Source: Amygdalobacter nucleatus (lineage in GTDB: Bacteria > Bacillota > Clostridia > Saccharofermentanales > Fastidiosipilaceae). From it: a DNA stretch of 64,000 nucleotides. The stretch spans positions 1,480,001 through 1,544,000 of the forward strand of contig NZ_JARFNM010000001.1 in NCBI RefSeq assembly GCF_029167365.1. Direction: 5' to 3'. A model generated the notes under the pieces. The model was not told the origin of the DNA. It saw only the letters and a program-made list of their open reading frames with translations, and ran no database searches. The position numbers and the translations under genes were made by a program. Shown in pieces: positions 29,332 to 37,365 of this stretch (within the stretch, counting starts at the first letter, position 1; each line of letters opens with the position of its first letter).

Positions 29332-29793
29332 TCACCACTTACTGAGCGATTGACGGAATTTGTCCTTACGCTCCTCTTCTAAGTCTAAAATATTCCACAC
29401 AATCCCTTTCAAAATGACTAGCATCCCCACAAAATAAGCCATCTTTATTGAGTAAAGTTCTTCGTAATTAGCTAATTTATGCCATTTTAAAATTGCAAAA
29501 ACTAACGCCAATGCTAGATGTAAATAAAGAACCTTGTAGACAAAGCCGAATATGTAGGCACGCCTGATTGCTTTCTCACTTGTAAGGCTGCATGCCTGTT
29601 TGGCTAGATAATAATTACTACACAGATACAAGTCCAAACAAGCTACTAGCAAAATTGAAGAAATATGTCTAACTGGCCAGATAGCGCTCGAAATTAGCAA
29701 AGAGAGCATGATAATTACATTACCTTCAACTAAAGCACATTTTGCTTCTTTATAATTAAGCTCTGGCTCATTCTGGTAACAAAGGATATACAT
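29332..29793 (-). CDS. Small membrane protein, paralogue of the 54962-55429 pseudogene
   Basis: The 153-residue protein starts MYILCYQNEPELNYKEAK and has about four hydrophobic segments separated by short basic loops (KQACSLTSEKAIRRAYI), ending in a charged tail. The pseudogene at 54962 has the same start (MHILCYWDEPELNYQEAK), the RRAHI block and helix order, so they form a family. No known domain was recognised. The gene stands alone here. Confidence 0.6.
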   Translation of the reverse strand: MYILCYQNEPELNYKEAKCALVEGNVIIMLSLLISSAIWPVRHISSILLVACLDLYLCSNYYLAKQACSLTSEKAIRRAYIFGFVYKVLYLHLALALVFAILKWHKLANYEELYSIKMAYFVGMLVILKGIVWNILDLEEERKDKFRQSLSKW

Positions 29794-30130: not shown

Positions 30131-32236
30131 ATGAAAAAAGTGGCGCAAACAATTTTGAAACACAGCAAGTTAATCATTGCCATTTATGTTGTTTTAGCAA
30201 TTATTTCTGTTTTTGGCATGTTGCAAGTCAAAGTCCAGTACGATTTGAGCCTTTATCTTCCACCTGAAAGTAATTCGACTGTTGGCTTAAAGTATTTATC
30301 TAACGAATTTCATGATGCAATTCCCAACTTGTATGTCGCAACACCTGTCAAAGATCTTAAGGCAGCCTTAGCTTTCAAAGAAGAACTAAAAACATATAAC
30401 GGCGTTGTATCCGTGCGCTATCTCGATGACATAGCTGACATTAGCCTACCTTTGAACTTGCAAAACCAAACTTTCGTATCTAACTACTACAAAAATGGTT
30501 TAGCGCGCTATGAATTAGTCGTTAAGAGTGAAAATTACGGAACTTATATCGCCAAAATGCGCAACGACTTTCAGCCCCGTCCCCTCTATCTAACTGGGCA
30601 AGCCCTCGATATGGGCAGCGCTAACACGGCAGTTAAAAGTGAAGTTAGTCGCATCATGTTATTTGCCGTACCTTTCGCCCTCTTCGTTCTCTACTTAATT
30701 AGCTCAAGTCTGTTTGAACCGCTTCTATTTGTCTTAACAATTTTTGCCGCCGTGCTCTTTAATATGGGCAGCAATTTCTTCAAAGGCGATATTTCTTTCA
30801 TTACGCAATCAATCGCTGGTATCATGCAATTAGCAGTTTCAATGAACTATGCTGTATTTTTGCTCCATCAGTTCAAGGAAGCTATCAATGAGGGCAAAGA
30901 TCTCTTAGAAGCACTTGAGTTAGCCATTCTCCGCAGCTTCTCTAGCATTACCTCATCAGCCGTGACAACGTTCTTCGGTTTTGTGGTACTCGTTCTCATG
31001 GCTTTCCGTTTAGGCCTCGATATGGGCTTAGTTTTGGCCAAGGGTATTATCTTTAGCTTGATCTGCGTCATTACACTTTTGCCTTGCTTAATCAAGGAGC
31101 TAGCCCCTTTAATTAAGAAATTTTCCTTTAAGCCAGTTTTTCGGGCCGAGCGTTTCCAATTCTTGCCCAAAATTGCTAAAGCGGTGCGCTATCCCTATTT
31201 AATCTTAGCCATTTTATTGTTGCCATTAGCTTTCATTGCGCAAAAGCGAACAGATATTTCCTATGGCATGGGTAATTTGCCAGAAAACTCGCAAGCTTAT
31301 AAAGATCGTGCCATCGTCGAACAGAATTTCGGTCGCTCGCTATTATATGCAATAATAGTCGACCGTGAAGACTCAGCTAAAGTGCCAGATTTAGTCAAAG
31401 AAATTAAGCAGCTAAAAGATGTCAATGCCGTTATAAGTTACAGTGAAATGGTAGGACCAGATGTGCCAAAGCAGGTGTTGCCAGCTAATTTAATTAAGCA
31501 ATTAGTTGCAGCAAATTATGAGCGCATTATTGTCCAGAGTAAGCTTGTGCCAGATAGTCATCCAGCTTTCAAATTAGCGCGCAATTTGCGCAAAGTTTGC
31601 GCTAAGCACACAGAGCATCCTTTCTATACAGTGGGTGAATCCTTCTCGCTTTTGGACATGAAAGATACAATCGAACGAGACAATATCATCATCAATTACT
31701 TCATCATCATCTCAGTAGCTCTGGTCTTGCTCTTAACCTTCTCCAACTTCACGCTACCGCTACTAATTGTCTTGACTATCGAATTTTCTATCTGGCTTAA
31801 TTTGGCTATTCCCTACTTCCAAGCTACACGCTTGAATTTCATCGGTTATCTCGTTGTCAATACTTTCCAACTCGGCGCTACTGTCGATTATGGTATCCTA
31901 TTAAGTGAAAAGTATCTCCGCTATAGAAAGCTAGGCTCCAAAGAAGATGCCTTTAAGCGCTGTATAAGCGAAGCTACAGCTTCCCTCTTAGCACCTGCGC
32001 TCATTTTAAGTGGTTGTGGCTTTATCCTATCCGTCATTTCTTCGCTCCAAGCTGTAAGTGAAATTGGCCAGGTTTTAGGCCGCGGAGCTTTGCTTTCGCT
32101 ATTTAACGTGTTAATTCTCTTGCCGAATTTGCTCTATCTGTTCGATTGGCCAATTCAGCACAGTAATTTTAATCTCATGACTATTCATACTAAACTTAAG
32201 CAAAAATTGCATCGCAAACAGAAAGGTCAGGCCTGA
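30131..32236 (+). CDS. MMPL-family (RND) transporter
   Basis: The 701-residue protein has the two-half RND layout: a first helix (residues ~10-35), a periplasm-like domain, five or six helices (from about 180 to 330), a second domain and a second helix bundle (about 510-690). GQALDMGSAN and the SSD-like helices fit MMPL proteins, which move lipids, peptides or hydrophobic compounds. The ATG at 30131 has GAGG seven bases upstream; the TTG six bases earlier is unlikely. It lacks the long helical extracellular insert seen in some relatives, and the next gene encodes one. Cargo unknown. Confidence 0.85.
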   Translation: MKKVAQTILKHSKLIIAIYVVLAIISVFGMLQVKVQYDLSLYLPPESNSTVGLKYLSNEFHDAIPNLYVATPVKDLKAALAFKEELKTYNGVVSVRYLDDIADISLPLNLQNQTFVSNYYKNGLARYELVVKSENYGTYIAKMRNDFQPRPLYLTGQALDMGSANTAVKSEVSRIMLFAVPFALFVLYLISSSLFEPLLFVLTIFAAVLFNMGSNFFKGDISFITQSIAGIMQLAVSMNYAVFLLHQFKEAINEGKDLLEALELAILRSFSSITSSAVTTFFGFVVLVLMAFRLGLDMGLVLAKGIIFSLICVITLLPCLIKELAPLIKKFSFKPVFRAERFQFLPKIAKAVRYPYLILAILLLPLAFIAQKRTDISYGMGNLPENSQAYKDRAIVEQNFGRSLLYAIIVDREDSAKVPDLVKEIKQLKDVNAVISYSEMVGPDVPKQVLPANLIKQLVAANYERIIVQSKLVPDSHPAFKLARNLRKVCAKHTEHPFYTVGESFSLLDMKDTIERDNIIINYFIIISVALVLLLTFSNFTLPLLIVLTIEFSIWLNLAIPYFQATRLNFIGYLVVNTFQLGATVDYGILLSEKYLRYRKLGSKEDAFKRCISEATASLLAPALILSGCGFILSVISSLQAVSEIGQVLGRGALLSLFNVLILLPNLLYLFDWPIQHSNFNLMTIHTKLKQKLHRKQKGQA

Positions 32237-32237
32237 T

Positions 32238-35045
32238 ATGAGTAAATTGAAGCATAAAACAAATTGCAAAAAGCAAACTAAGGGAGTAGAAACGACCAAC
32301 CAAATAAATTTACGCTACAAAATCTTGGCCTTTATCCTCGCCTTGTTGATGATTCTCGGCCTATTTAGTAGCCTGCCACTCTTTGCCCTCAATGAAACAG
32401 AGGCAAAAGGTGCCAAGCAGATAGATGAAGCAGCTCTTAAAAAAGCGAAGGCCAAACTCAAAGATGAAGTTGCCAAGTTACCATACACCAAAGAAGAACT
32501 GATTTATGTCAGTTTGGATCCTAATAATAAAGCAGACAGTAAGTGCCTAACGCCAACAGTCTACGTGGTCAATTATTTCGAGGCCAAGCAAGATTGCACT
32601 GTCACTGATTTTGGCAACTATGCAGAAGTGCACAACTTACAGCCAAGCAAAGAATGGAACGTCAGTAAGGAAAATGGCCAAAGTAAGATTGAGTTCAAAT
32701 TAAAGAAAGGCGAATTTTTCTATTATCAGGGTCAGCTAAATGATATTGCCTTGCCTTGGCAAATTGCCTATCAATATACTTTAGATGGCAAAGTGCTAAG
32801 TCCCGCTGAAATTGCACACAAAGATGGGCATTTCAAGTTGGAAATGAGCATCAAGCCAAATCTAAAAGCCGACACATCATTCTATGATAGTTACATCTTG
32901 CAATTACAATTTGCCCTGCCTTTGGCTAATTTCAGCAACATCAAAGCCAAAGATGCACAAATTAGTATTGCAGCTAACAAGACAAATGTCGTTTTCATGC
33001 AATTGCCTAAGCAAACTAAGACCTATGTTATCGAAGCAGATGCTAAGGATATTAATCTGCCAAGTAGCAACCTTACTGCTCTGCCTATCACGTTTGACTT
33101 AGAGGCAGATGGTTTGTTAGGCAAGCAGATGGGCCAACTTAAAGCTTTGGAAAATGGCATTGGCCAACTTAACAGCGCTTCTAATCAGCTGAACAATGGT
33201 TATAGCAAGCTGAGCAACGGTATTTGTGAATTAAATATCGGCAGTCAAAAATTAGCTAATGGCGGTATTGAACTTGGCGATGGTGCCATCAAATTTAGCT
33301 CTGGCTTACAGCAATACCAAGCTGGTTTACAGCAATATTTAGCTGGTGTCGGGCAATTAAATTCAGGTATGCAAGAAGTCAAAGCCGGCTTATCCAAAGC
33401 TGAATTACAAAGTTATATGTCCTTACTGCAAGATTTGCAAAAATATCTGACAGAATTGCCAGAGGGCAAAGAAATTAGCTTAGAAGAATTAGAAACAAAA
33501 CTGGACATTTTAACCGATACGCTTGAGAAATTCTTAACTCTATTAAAGCAAAACCAAGACTTACTCTCTAAAATATTAAGCTTGAAAGTCCCACCACTGG
33601 ACGTTGCACAAATGGAAAAAGCGCTTAACGGTATTACTGAAACGGTAAACGAGCTAGCTAATATGGTCGATAAGTTACCTGACATACTTGCTTTGCCTAA
33701 CAGAAATGGAGTTACACCGAAGCCAAATAGCGCTTCTAAGCCTGCTGTGACGCCTTCTGCGAAGTCTGCTGAAACACCAGATGGGAAGCTGGCTGTGAAA
33801 CCTGATACGACACCTTCGGTTAATGCCGTGACTCCTGATGTGAAACCTTCCGTGGCGCCAGATGCAAAGCCTTCAGCGGCGACTGATACTAAGCCTTCCG
33901 TGACACCTGCTGAAACACCAGATGGAAAGCTGGCTGTGAAACCTGACATAACGCCTTCCGTAGAACCGGATGCAAAGCCATCAGCGATGCCTGATACTCA
34001 GCCTGCTGCGAAACGTGATATGGCACCCTCCGTGACACCTAACGTGCAAGCAGAAGCAACACCAAATGGAAATTCAGCTATTACGAACGAGGCTAAATCT
34101 GCTACCAGTGAAGCCAAAGCTGTTATGTCAAACACTGCCTTTACACCAACAAGCTTTGCCACACCTAAAAAGCAAACTTTTGTAGCCACAAGCTTGAGTA
34201 GCCTAGGTCCTAAGCCTAATCCACCTTTTTCTTTGCATGATCTCAAAGCAAAGCTTCACAATTTGGCTACTGAGCTCAATAAGCTCCAAGCCCAAATGAA
34301 AGAAATAAGCAGCTTTGTGGAAGCAATCAAGAAACTAAAAGCCAGTTTGCCTGATAAGGCGCTGAATGTAGAAGAGCTAATTACTAAACTCAACACGACT
34401 ATTGAACAGCTGAAAAAGGCTAAAGAGCTAATTCACAAATTAAGAGCTGAGAAAAATGATGCAAAATTGCCAAGTGCCAAGGAGATTGCTGAAATTCTAG
34501 ATAACATTCCCAAACTGATTGACGGGTTAAATCAACTGGCTGACGGTAGCTCAAAGCTCGCTCTAAACGGCGCCATCTTATCTGAAAAAGGCGGCGAATT
34601 AGTAGCTGGAGCCAATCAATTAACTGGCGGTATCTTAATGTATGTTGATGGTACATTTAAGCTATCTAAAGGCGTCAGCAAGCTAGCTGACGGTGCCATC
34701 AAGCTAGAGCAAGGTTTCCAAGCTTTCCAAGCTGGATTCAATAAGTTAAGTCAAGCTACAAACGGTATGAGTGAGACGGCTAAGCAAAAGATGACACAAA
34801 TGATCAACGATTTATTGGGTCAAAATTTCAGCGCCCATTCTTTTATCTCAGACAAAAACCAAAAGCACACAATCAGTCAATTCGTCTTTATTTTCCCCGG
34901 CACAAGTGCTAGCGAAAATGCAAAAACGCCTGAGCCAAGCCAACAAGCTGAAAGTTCCTCAAGCAATGCCAATGTTGCGCCCAATAAAGATAGCTCATTC
35001 TGGCAAAAATTAAAGGCCTTGTTTAAGCCTGCAAGCAACGATTAA
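32238..35045 (+). CDS. Large secreted/anchored helical protein partner of the MMPL transporter
   Basis: The 935-residue protein has one N-terminal hydrophobic helix (about residues 30-50) and no other obvious membrane segment. Residues ~300-380 and ~760-850 hold short repeats of the type Q-L-N-x-G-x-x-K-L-x-x-G (for example LNNGYSKLSNGICEL, KLALNGAILSEKG, LADGAIKLEQG), like the helical domain in YhgE/Pip and some MMPL proteins. Between them is a ~150-residue Pro/Thr/Ala/Lys-rich linker. Its ATG is one base after the transporter's stop (TGATATG), so the two are coupled. Role inferred: an external scaffold for the transporter. Confidence 0.6.
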   Translation: MSKLKHKTNCKKQTKGVETTNQINLRYKILAFILALLMILGLFSSLPLFALNETEAKGAKQIDEAALKKAKAKLKDEVAKLPYTKEELIYVSLDPNNKADSKCLTPTVYVVNYFEAKQDCTVTDFGNYAEVHNLQPSKEWNVSKENGQSKIEFKLKKGEFFYYQGQLNDIALPWQIAYQYTLDGKVLSPAEIAHKDGHFKLEMSIKPNLKADTSFYDSYILQLQFALPLANFSNIKAKDAQISIAANKTNVVFMQLPKQTKTYVIEADAKDINLPSSNLTALPITFDLEADGLLGKQMGQLKALENGIGQLNSASNQLNNGYSKLSNGICELNIGSQKLANGGIELGDGAIKFSSGLQQYQAGLQQYLAGVGQLNSGMQEVKAGLSKAELQSYMSLLQDLQKYLTELPEGKEISLEELETKLDILTDTLEKFLTLLKQNQDLLSKILSLKVPPLDVAQMEKALNGITETVNELANMVDKLPDILALPNRNGVTPKPNSASKPAVTPSAKSAETPDGKLAVKPDTTPSVNAVTPDVKPSVAPDAKPSAATDTKPSVTPAETPDGKLAVKPDITPSVEPDAKPSAMPDTQPAAKRDMAPSVTPNVQAEATPNGNSAITNEAKSATSEAKAVMSNTAFTPTSFATPKKQTFVATSLSSLGPKPNPPFSLHDLKAKLHNLATELNKLQAQMKEISSFVEAIKKLKASLPDKALNVEELITKLNTTIEQLKKAKELIHKLRAEKNDAKLPSAKEIAEILDNIPKLIDGLNQLADGSSKLALNGAILSEKGGELVAGANQLTGGILMYVDGTFKLSKGVSKLADGAIKLEQGFQAFQAGFNKLSQATNGMSETAKQKMTQMINDLLGQNFSAHSFISDKNQKHTISQFVFIFPGTSASENAKTPEPSQQAESSSSNANVAPNKDSSFWQKLKALFKPASND
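33768..33950 (+). repeat. Internal DNA repeat in the Pro/Thr-rich linker
   Basis: A ~40-base segment starting at 33768 (encoding AETPDGKLAVKPD) recurs with three changes at 33909, 141 bases further on. The intervening and following codons repeat D-x-K-P-S-x units. Such repeats allow length change by slippage. Confidence 0.75.
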
Positions 35046-35188
35046 TCTAGGGCTTGGCCCACAAATAGTGATTATGCCTGTAGGCCTGCAAACATTAGTT
35101 AGGCTTTAGCAAGTTCAGAGTAGAGTTAATCTTACTGAAATATACGAATGTTATACTTAGCTGATATTGTCATTTTAGGAGCAAATTT

Positions 35189-36553
35189 ATGCTTTTTACA
35201 AAACTAACTAAGCGTAAACTTAGTCTAATTTTAACATGTAGTATCTGCCTCAATTTGCTTGCAGCTTGCGAACAAAAAAGGAACGTTGAACCAACGAATT
35301 TACCGAGCTTGCATGCCGAAAGCATTGACCTAAACAGTGTTTACAAGCCAACAGAAAAGGATGAGGCAGCTGAGTCTATGAATGATGATGCAGAAAAACG
35401 TATGCAAGAATTGGAAAAGCTCATCACAGCTTATCTGGCCAAAAAAGATTTAAGCTCCGACCACCTGGCCATCGAATTGTATAACTTCAAGCGTAAAGAA
35501 CATTATGCACTCAATGCCGACAAGTATTTCACAGCCGCAAGCACCTATAAATTTCCTTTAGCCGTTATTTACTACGACCTCATGCGGCAAGGCAAGGTGC
35601 AAAAAGGCAGCCAATTCAAAATTACGGAAGCTGAATTAGCCGAGGAAGATAGCGCTTACAGACGAAGTGCCATAGGTAGCATTATCTGTGTTGAAGATCT
35701 CCTAAATCCCATGATTTTGCATTCAGACAACACAGCTGCCCACGTCCTATTTGAGGAATTAGGCGGCTTTCAGCGTTACAAAGAAATGGTATGTGAAACT
35801 ATCAGCATTAACAAAGATCCGAACTATATAAGCGAGGGCAATAAGATAAACGCCCAAATTCTCAGTGCTTTTGCCAAAAAAGTCTACGAAAATCAAAGTG
35901 ATTACAAAACTCTATTAGCCAACATGCAAAAGGCTGAGCCTATCCATTATTTGAACTTCTTGCCAGCTATGCACAATATCATGTGGCAAAAATATGGTTC
36001 ATATGCAGAAGCATTAAATTCAGTTGGTCTCAAATTAGATGGTCCAGAGCAATATTCCTTGGTTGTGTTGACCAATTTAGGCCGAAATGGCGAGCCAGTA
36101 GTCGGTGAACTTGGTGCCTTAGTCTACGCTTTTTACCACCCAGATAAACTAAAAGCAGATGAAATCATCAATAAAGCCGAGCACTTCGTAGCTTATTATC
36201 AACCAGCATCTGATACGCAGCCAGTTGCAAATCATGCCCAATTTGACCAAAGCGTCCCTGTTAATAACATAAACGAAACTCCTAATCCAAATAATGGAGC
36301 AGCTGAAGCTGAGGTTAAAGTTGACGGCACTTCCGAACCGCTTGTTGATAACAAAAATGAAGCTGTTGATAAGGATAGCAATCAGAAGGCAGATGCTACT
36401 GAATTTCAAGTAGAAGAAGTAGCAAATGACACAAACGAGCAAGCTCAAGCTGAAAATGCCGCAGCTAAAGACGTTACAGATGGAAATTCAAGCACTGCTT
36501 CTGATACTCACGATGCTGCTAGTAATAGCAATGACGCTTCTAGTAATAACTAA
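35189..36553 (+). CDS. Lipoprotein serine hydrolase, class A beta-lactamase fold
   Basis: The 454-residue protein has a lipoprotein signal (lipobox LAAC). The catalytic domain contains the S-x-x-K motif in AASTYKFPLAV, the SDN motif in LHSDNTAAHVL and a K-Y-G in MWQKYGSY in place of K-T-G. These are the marks of Beta-lactamase2-type serine hydrolases, which may cut peptidoglycan rather than beta-lactams. A ~110-residue Asn/Asp/Glu/Ala-rich tail follows (from about 345). It lies after the MMPL locus in the same direction and likely works at the cell surface. Confidence 0.75.
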   Translation: MLFTKLTKRKLSLILTCSICLNLLAACEQKRNVEPTNLPSLHAESIDLNSVYKPTEKDEAAESMNDDAEKRMQELEKLITAYLAKKDLSSDHLAIELYNFKRKEHYALNADKYFTAASTYKFPLAVIYYDLMRQGKVQKGSQFKITEAELAEEDSAYRRSAIGSIICVEDLLNPMILHSDNTAAHVLFEELGGFQRYKEMVCETISINKDPNYISEGNKINAQILSAFAKKVYENQSDYKTLLANMQKAEPIHYLNFLPAMHNIMWQKYGSYAEALNSVGLKLDGPEQYSLVVLTNLGRNGEPVVGELGALVYAFYHPDKLKADEIINKAEHFVAYYQPASDTQPVANHAQFDQSVPVNNINETPNPNNGAAEAEVKVDGTSEPLVDNKNEAVDKDSNQKADATEFQVEEVANDTNEQAQAENAAAKDVTDGNSSTASDTHDAASNSNDASSNN

Positions 36554-36654
36554 GTAGTCGTTACTGTTTGTTTAAGCCTTTGACTTAACTTTGCCTCAAA
36601 TCTGTTATATATTTAAATTGTATAAGCAATTATCTAAAAGAAAGTAGGCCTAAC

Positions 36655-37365
36655 ATGGCGGAATTAGAAAAACCAAATGAAGTAGCTGAAGAAAATAGCG
36701 TAAAAGACGCTACAAGGATTGCATCTAATGCAGTTGTTGAACAAGTTAAGGATGCACCAGCTGAAGCTGTACACGACAAAGCTGTATCTGAAAATAAAGA
36801 AGCTATGCCAGGCACTACAACCGACACTAGCGTAGATAGTAAATCTGAACCAGAAGGTTCACCAAAAGAAAAAGCTAACGCACAAGAAACTAACGCTACA
36901 AAATCAGAAACAAAAGTAGAAAAAGAATCAACGCCTGTTTTTACAAGCTCAGATGTAAGGACTGAGTCTACCCATTCTGGCTCTTTCTTCTTACGTCTAT
37001 TATTCATATTAGTAGCTGTCATTGCTTTGCCACTCTGTTTGGCTTTCGCTTTGACTGGACTTAGCTTGATCTTAGCTACATTAGCGCTTTTCTTTGCTTG
37101 TTTTGTCGCAGTAACTGGTGTCTTTTACCATGACTTCTTGACTTTTTTCCAAATAAACTCACTTGATAGAATGATAAGCTTTGATGCTATCCCTTATCTT
37201 CAGCAATATTACGATCTGTTACCTGAGCCATATCGCTTTGCTCTAGCAATTGTTATCGTGATTTTAGCTGCATTCTTTGTGCTGGGATTGGCTTTCCTCT
37301 TCCTAAAATTGGCTAAGTCAATCTGGCATGGCATGGGCAACTGGCGTTGGAAATTAAGCAAATAA
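36655..37365 (+). CDS. Acidic membrane protein, unknown function
   Basis: The 236-residue protein has an N-terminal ~115-residue low-complexity, acidic part rich in Glu, Lys, Ala and Thr, then two strong hydrophobic segments (about 118-160), a loop, and a third (about 200-222), ending in a basic tail (WHGMGNWRWKLSK). Its composition resembles the tail of the preceding lipoprotein. No family was recognised; it closes the plus-strand envelope locus. Confidence 0.6.
   Translation: MAELEKPNEVAEENSVKDATRIASNAVVEQVKDAPAEAVHDKAVSENKEAMPGTTTDTSVDSKSEPEGSPKEKANAQETNATKSETKVEKESTPVFTSSDVRTESTHSGSFFLRLLFILVAVIALPLCLAFALTGLSLILATLALFFACFVAVTGVFYHDFLTFFQINSLDRMISFDAIPYLQQYYDLLPEPYRFALAIVIVILAAFFVLGLAFLFLKLAKSIWHGMGNWRWKLSK

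Follow-up and report, generated by a model that had tools for sequence, protein, structure and literature searches.

An MMPL transporter and an exported helical protein form a conserved gene pair in Bacillota

Which genes of a four-gene envelope locus in Amygdalobacter nucleatus belong together, and what might their products do? Envelope partners are known to be required by the RND pumps of mycobacteria and Gram-negative bacteria and, to our knowledge, little has been established about the arrangement of MMPL export in single-membrane bacteria. The locus lies within a 64,000-nucleotide stretch of DNA (the window; RefSeq assembly GCF_029167365.1, contig NZ_JARFNM010000001.1, positions 1,480,001 to 1,544,000), part of a genome of 1.6 Mb in 3 contigs. 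All four ORFs are present and read in the same direction: an MMPL/RND-type transporter of 701 aa (30131..32236, + strand), an exported helical protein of 935 aa, here called the partner (32238..35045, + strand), a serine-hydrolase lipoprotein (35189-36553) and an acidic membrane protein (36655-37365) that matches no family. The families guessed for these genes in a preliminary description, made from sequence alone, were borne out by Pfam and NCBIfam, which returned MMPL (E 7e-40), the TIGR03057 heptad repeat (E 2e-13) and Beta-lactamase2 (E 2e-20). That description had also read TGATATG at the first junction as an overlap of stop and start; the MMPL stop occupies 32234-32236 and the partner starts at 32238, so that one base lies between them. 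The junction in relatives is most often a 4-nt overlap. Promoter and terminator scans gave site numbers no higher than in shuffled sequences.

A two-gene unit and its neighbours

The MMPL and the helical protein are an obligate two-gene unit that is very widespread in bacteria. We searched 291 genomes of the class for MMPL homologues and for the partner N-domain (alignment A3) and matched the coordinates. The N-domain was found in 72 genomes, about a quarter, every one of which carries an MMPL of the ~700-residue type. Seventy-three of the 74 partner copies lie directly downstream of an MMPL on the same strand, and in the single exception partner and MMPL lie on separate contigs. These counts uphold the earlier view that the two proteins belong together. 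An MMPL was found without a partner in three class genomes: at a contig end (G287), followed by a broken partner reading frame (G003), and with no partner (G120).

A second, independent scan queried the GTDB contig collection with an MMPL alignment. Eighty loci were kept, 79 of them with downstream sequence, and a partner was found downstream in 76 of these 79, by ORF calling in 68 and by six-frame profile search in 8. It lies ~1.5 kb further downstream in one locus (L130), and no partner was found nearby in three others (L081, L083 and L137), despite an MMPL of the same type. Across the phylum sample, the partner N-domain occurs in 48 of 398 genomes (12%). Titles of metagenome-assembled genomes add Coriobacteriales and one Anaerolineaceae bacterium, assignments that are by title alone and could reflect contamination. 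The pair is missing from some genomes of the window's own family. The open-access literature that we searched yielded no description of an MMPL/heptad-partner pair, in keeping with the initial impression that the system was not a recognised one. The pair is without a name, and apart from the MMPL family itself, Pfam and NCBIfam cover only the partner's repeat.

The conservation of gene order proposed as a check thus held strictly for the MMPL and its partner and failed for the two genes that follow. The lipoprotein has, as first described, a beta-lactamase-type site; it carries the lipobox LLAAC and the motifs STYK and SDN, and is class-A-beta-lactamase-like. KTG may be replaced by KYG, and the protein ends in a long acidic tail. 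In the same family, seven further loci have the pair with neither the hydrolase nor the acidic protein, and across all the other loci examined these two genes never adjoin the pair. The closest homologue of the hydrolase (41%) comes from a genome (G299) where no MMPL was detected, and the family's other genomes contain no homologue of the acidic protein. Given this lack of co-occurrence, and gaps of 143 nt between partner and lipoprotein and 101 nt between lipoprotein and acidic gene, the last two genes stand apart from the pair and are mere neighbours of it.

Anatomy and predicted fold of the partner

We examined AlphaFold models of the window partner (mean pLDDT 63.5) and of a compact orthologue of 515 aa (mean pLDDT 88.3). 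The window partner, whose features all lie on the + strand, opens with a hydrophobic helix that may be a signal peptide or an anchor (residues 20-44; 32295..32369); many relatives have AxA sites in their N-termini and some have a lipobox. A beta-domain follows (residues 83-283; 32484..33086; pLDDT mostly >90), and then two helical arms of xxxLxxG heptads, detected by TIGR03057 and modelled with short breaks. The arms are equal in length, at 195 aa each (residues 290-484, 33105..33689; residues 666-860, 34233..34817). Between them lies a disordered insert rich in Pro, Thr and Ala (residues ~486-663; 33693..34226; pLDDT <50), with a tandem repeat at 33846-33902. After the second arm come a C-terminal strand (residues 879-886; 34872..34895; pLDDT ~79-90) that is conserved among relatives with the consensus SFxSxKNxxVxxVQFV, and an amphipathic tail helix (residues 921-928; 34998..35021) whose motif, FWxKLxxLF, is found in 50 of 53 aligned partners. 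The compact orthologue has the same order, with the beta-domain at residues 33-217, helices at 226-328 and 348-455, the strand at 473-482 and the tail helix at 503-510. Both models thus share a beta-domain, two long helices, a closing strand and a tail helix, and together predict a compact base carrying a long antiparallel helical hairpin or rod, with the C-terminal strand predicted to complete the beta-domain.

The core of the partner is the beta-domain with its closing strand and tail, since two orthologues keep these parts while nearly lacking the coil (L103:8398-9366, 322 aa; L110:3456-4370, 304 aa). In the aligned set, the length of the middle part ranges between 116 and 636 residues. This variation, and the position of the Pro/Thr insert, bear on the earlier suggestion that a long Pro/Thr linker could cross the wall. 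Because the insert is disordered and lies between the two arms, it is better described as the tip of the hairpin than as a wall-crossing tether; it is local to this protein and not conserved among relatives, and we set the linker aside as a main idea. With coils ranging from almost none to ~640 residues, spanning the wall is not a general requirement, which speaks against a simple tube across the wall as the rule for every species.

The heptad arrays are a secure assignment (TIGR03057, 49.8 bits against a cut-off of 18.6, in 7 stretches), the heptad repeat being the sole model above its cut-off among the 25 NCBIfam matches listed. Such arrays form a long extracytoplasmic rod in YhgE/Pip and EsaA/YueB, and the first comparison of the partner's helical repeats with those of YhgE/Pip was correct for the repeat itself. 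It does not extend to the rest of the protein: the C-terminus consists of a strand followed by a short tail helix, long hydrophobic helices are absent beyond residue 44, and membership of YhgE/Pip was rejected since the C-terminal multi-pass membrane domain is absent.

What the base resembles emerged from structure rather than sequence comparison. Searches of the N-domain against Pfam and PDB sequences gave nothing convincing, with no adaptin chain among the PDB sequence matches. Fourteen N-domains had no match to PF00928 (Adap_comp_sub) or to MmpS in Pfam at E up to 10, and four partners had none to MmpS in NCBIfam at E up to 0.1. With Foldseek, the best 27 matches of the window model were adaptor mu domains or the COPI delta domain, and the 31 top matches of the orthologue model were likewise adaptor mu domains or domains related to them; the best E was 1.7e-6 with either model. 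VIA-align gave Z up to 11.5 for the window model, with an alignment of ~200 residues that extends from model residue 76 to 888, a reach that places the strand after the coil within the mu-homology match. It gave Z up to 11.2 for the orthologue model, where helical hairpins, RipA and Smc among them, reach equal or higher scores by way of the coil. The mu-homology alignments as a whole have Z of 10-11.5 over ~180-205 residues, with rmsd mostly ~4 to 6 and identity of 5-14%. The predicted models, which come from one family, thus have the two-part beta-sandwich of a mu-homology domain, and we regard this as a likeness of fold and make no claim of descent. A viral structure library gave no useful match. 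MmpS-like and EsaA structures are absent among the fold matches listed, an absence that excludes nothing.

The pump, its regulator and its sister class

The transporter is a clear MMPL protein (PF03176, 137 bits against a cut-off of 20.5, in two stretches), and the MMPL profile also matches the MmpL4 and MmpL5 structures (E 1e-35 to 1e-23). It has no counterpart to ~200 residues of the second extracytoplasmic domain of MmpL4, and the coiled-coil insert found in mycobacterial MmpL4/5 is missing from it. In MmpL3, proton relay depends on Tyr-Asp pairs (PMC10171966). The window pump keeps the TM10 pair, D586-Y587 (31886..31891, + strand), and has an AAC codon for Asn239 at the TM4 position (30845..30847, + strand), where Asp is found in 124 of 124 relatives. 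The Asp-Tyr pairs of both helices are present in the other members of the family, and Asn239 is a matter of mechanism rather than of MMPL membership. The coupling of this particular pump may be altered or lost, or the codon may contain an erroneous base. The window MMPL has an end branch of 1.46 in the MMPL tree, against a median of 0.39.

TetR-type genes, detected by profile, lie at most 1.7 kb upstream of the pair in 52 of 74 loci, 47 of them on the opposite strand, and in most relatives the pair is probably under the control of a TetR-type repressor. The profile found no such gene near the pair in the window, and the pair of G024 likewise lies outside a TetR context. With no TetR gene nearby and Asn in place of the TM4 Asp, the window copy could be uncoupled or altered. 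Upstream of the MMPL, on the opposite strand, a gene for a small membrane protein that matches no family (29332-29793) stands where the TetR-type gene sits in many relatives.

Not all related pumps have the heptad partner. Sister MMPLs of ~770-850 residues have a different downstream coiled-coil partner in 21 of 21 loci (L052, L174-L193), and in three genomes (L042, L043, L044) this partner and the MMPL are fused into a single ORF of 1912-2003 aa. The sister partner combines a signal peptide with GLUG-like repeats (a weak match, E 0.007) and a helical region, in most cases together with a membrane helix at the C-terminus. Two other MMPLs, of 1347-1402 aa (L040, L041), have what look like repeats, ~700-740 residues in all, within the second extracytoplasmic domain; homology to the partner N-domain was sought in the PD2 inserts of large MMPLs and none was found. 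Sister-class and long-insert pumps form one clade in the MMPL tree (support 99), apart from the heptad-partner pumps, and partner type tracks the tree (6 changes, against 26.8 in shuffles). The fusion, which occurs in the sister class and not in the window MMPL's family, provides, by analogy, the strongest indirect argument for an action of such partners on the pump.

Possible function and comparison with known systems

We suggest that the locus probably encodes a two-component efflux system or lipid exporter in which the coiled-coil/MmpS-like part is provided in trans. The MMPL would be a proton-driven RND-type pump taking an amphipathic compound or lipid from the membrane, and the second protein its dedicated extracytoplasmic partner. 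The beta-domain and amphipathic tail would sit on the outer face of pump and membrane, from which the helical hairpin would project into the wall as a rod, ~29 nm long in the window species on the assumption that each arm of 195 residues forms a single straight helix. As the pump is without ~200 residues where MmpL5 has its coil, the partner could supply in trans both the coiled-coil that MmpL4/5 have built in and the part played there by the MmpS adaptor. The TetR-type repressor points to inducible efflux of toxic amphiphiles, fatty acids for example.

The same pair could instead export an envelope lipid or glycolipid for wall or membrane building, the rod positioning the pump or handing over the lipid. 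In favour are the export of envelope lipids by MmpL3 and other MmpLs, the wide distribution of the pair, and its occasional occurrence outside a TetR context, of which the window and G024 are examples. However, the adjacency of a TetR-type regulator in most loci, the patchy presence of the pair (72 of 291 genomes) and its absences within a single family are more readily explained by an accessory inducible pump than by an essential builder, and we consider this alternative unlikely. A role for the partner as a surface fibre or scaffold, similar to YueB/EsaA, relying on the MMPL only for placement or export and taking no part in transport, would account for a long heptad rod of variable length outside a Gram-positive-type cell. 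We judge it improbable, given that the partner was not found without an MMPL and that coil-less versions persist beside the pump, so that the rod cannot be the essential part. As for the transport and wall-remodelling system of four genes that was first envisaged, the shared direction and close spacing in the window genome are in its favour, but only the first two genes co-occur in relatives. With the hydrolase and acidic genes not adjacent to the pair in other loci, an acidic protein without family homologues, and the intergenic gaps described above, such a system is very improbable.

Building on the two-component exporter that we favour, we tentatively put forward a broader picture, in which the pair would represent an undescribed class of two-part MMPL exporters in a large part of Bacillota. 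The mu-homology-like base would dock on the pump and carry an exchangeable rod into the wall, and in sister pumps unrelated rods would have evolved, or been fused to the pump, to fill the same role. If this is true, a domain otherwise known from eukaryotic coat adaptors would serve as the base of a bacterial exporter. A natural test is offered by the occurrence of both coil-less and long-coil partners next to the same pump, and by the fused partner of the sister class; the coil-less partners of L103 and L110 are ideal for structure work.

Each known system shares some of these features. The xxxLxxG arrays of YhgE/Pip and EsaA/YueB are also found in the partner, which, unlike those proteins, has an obligate MMPL neighbour and no C-terminal multi-pass membrane domain. 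The base has the predicted fold of eukaryotic mu-homology domains (AP mu subunits, COPI delta, FCHo and SGIP1), but it belongs to an exported bacterial protein, has no Pfam match, and has a hairpin inserted before the last strand. FarE/FarR of Staphylococcus aureus is likewise a Gram-positive MMPL/RND pump, for unsaturated fatty acids, with a divergent TetR regulator; the paper mentions no heptad or coiled-coil partner (PMC12671165), and the window copy differs in having no regulator nearby. The mycobacterial MmpL4/MmpL5 pumps with MmpS4/MmpS5 are also alike, combining an MMPL pump, an extracytoplasmic antiparallel coiled-coil and a beta-domain partner from the same operon; the coiled-coil of MmpL5 is essential and forms a tube in models, and MmpS5 bridges the subunits (PMC12501195). 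The coiled-coil is inside the pump in MmpL4/5, whereas here it is in a separate partner that has no detectable sequence relation to MmpS and whose beta-domain resembles mu-homology domains, and the hosts are Clostridia and other Bacillota rather than mycobacteria.
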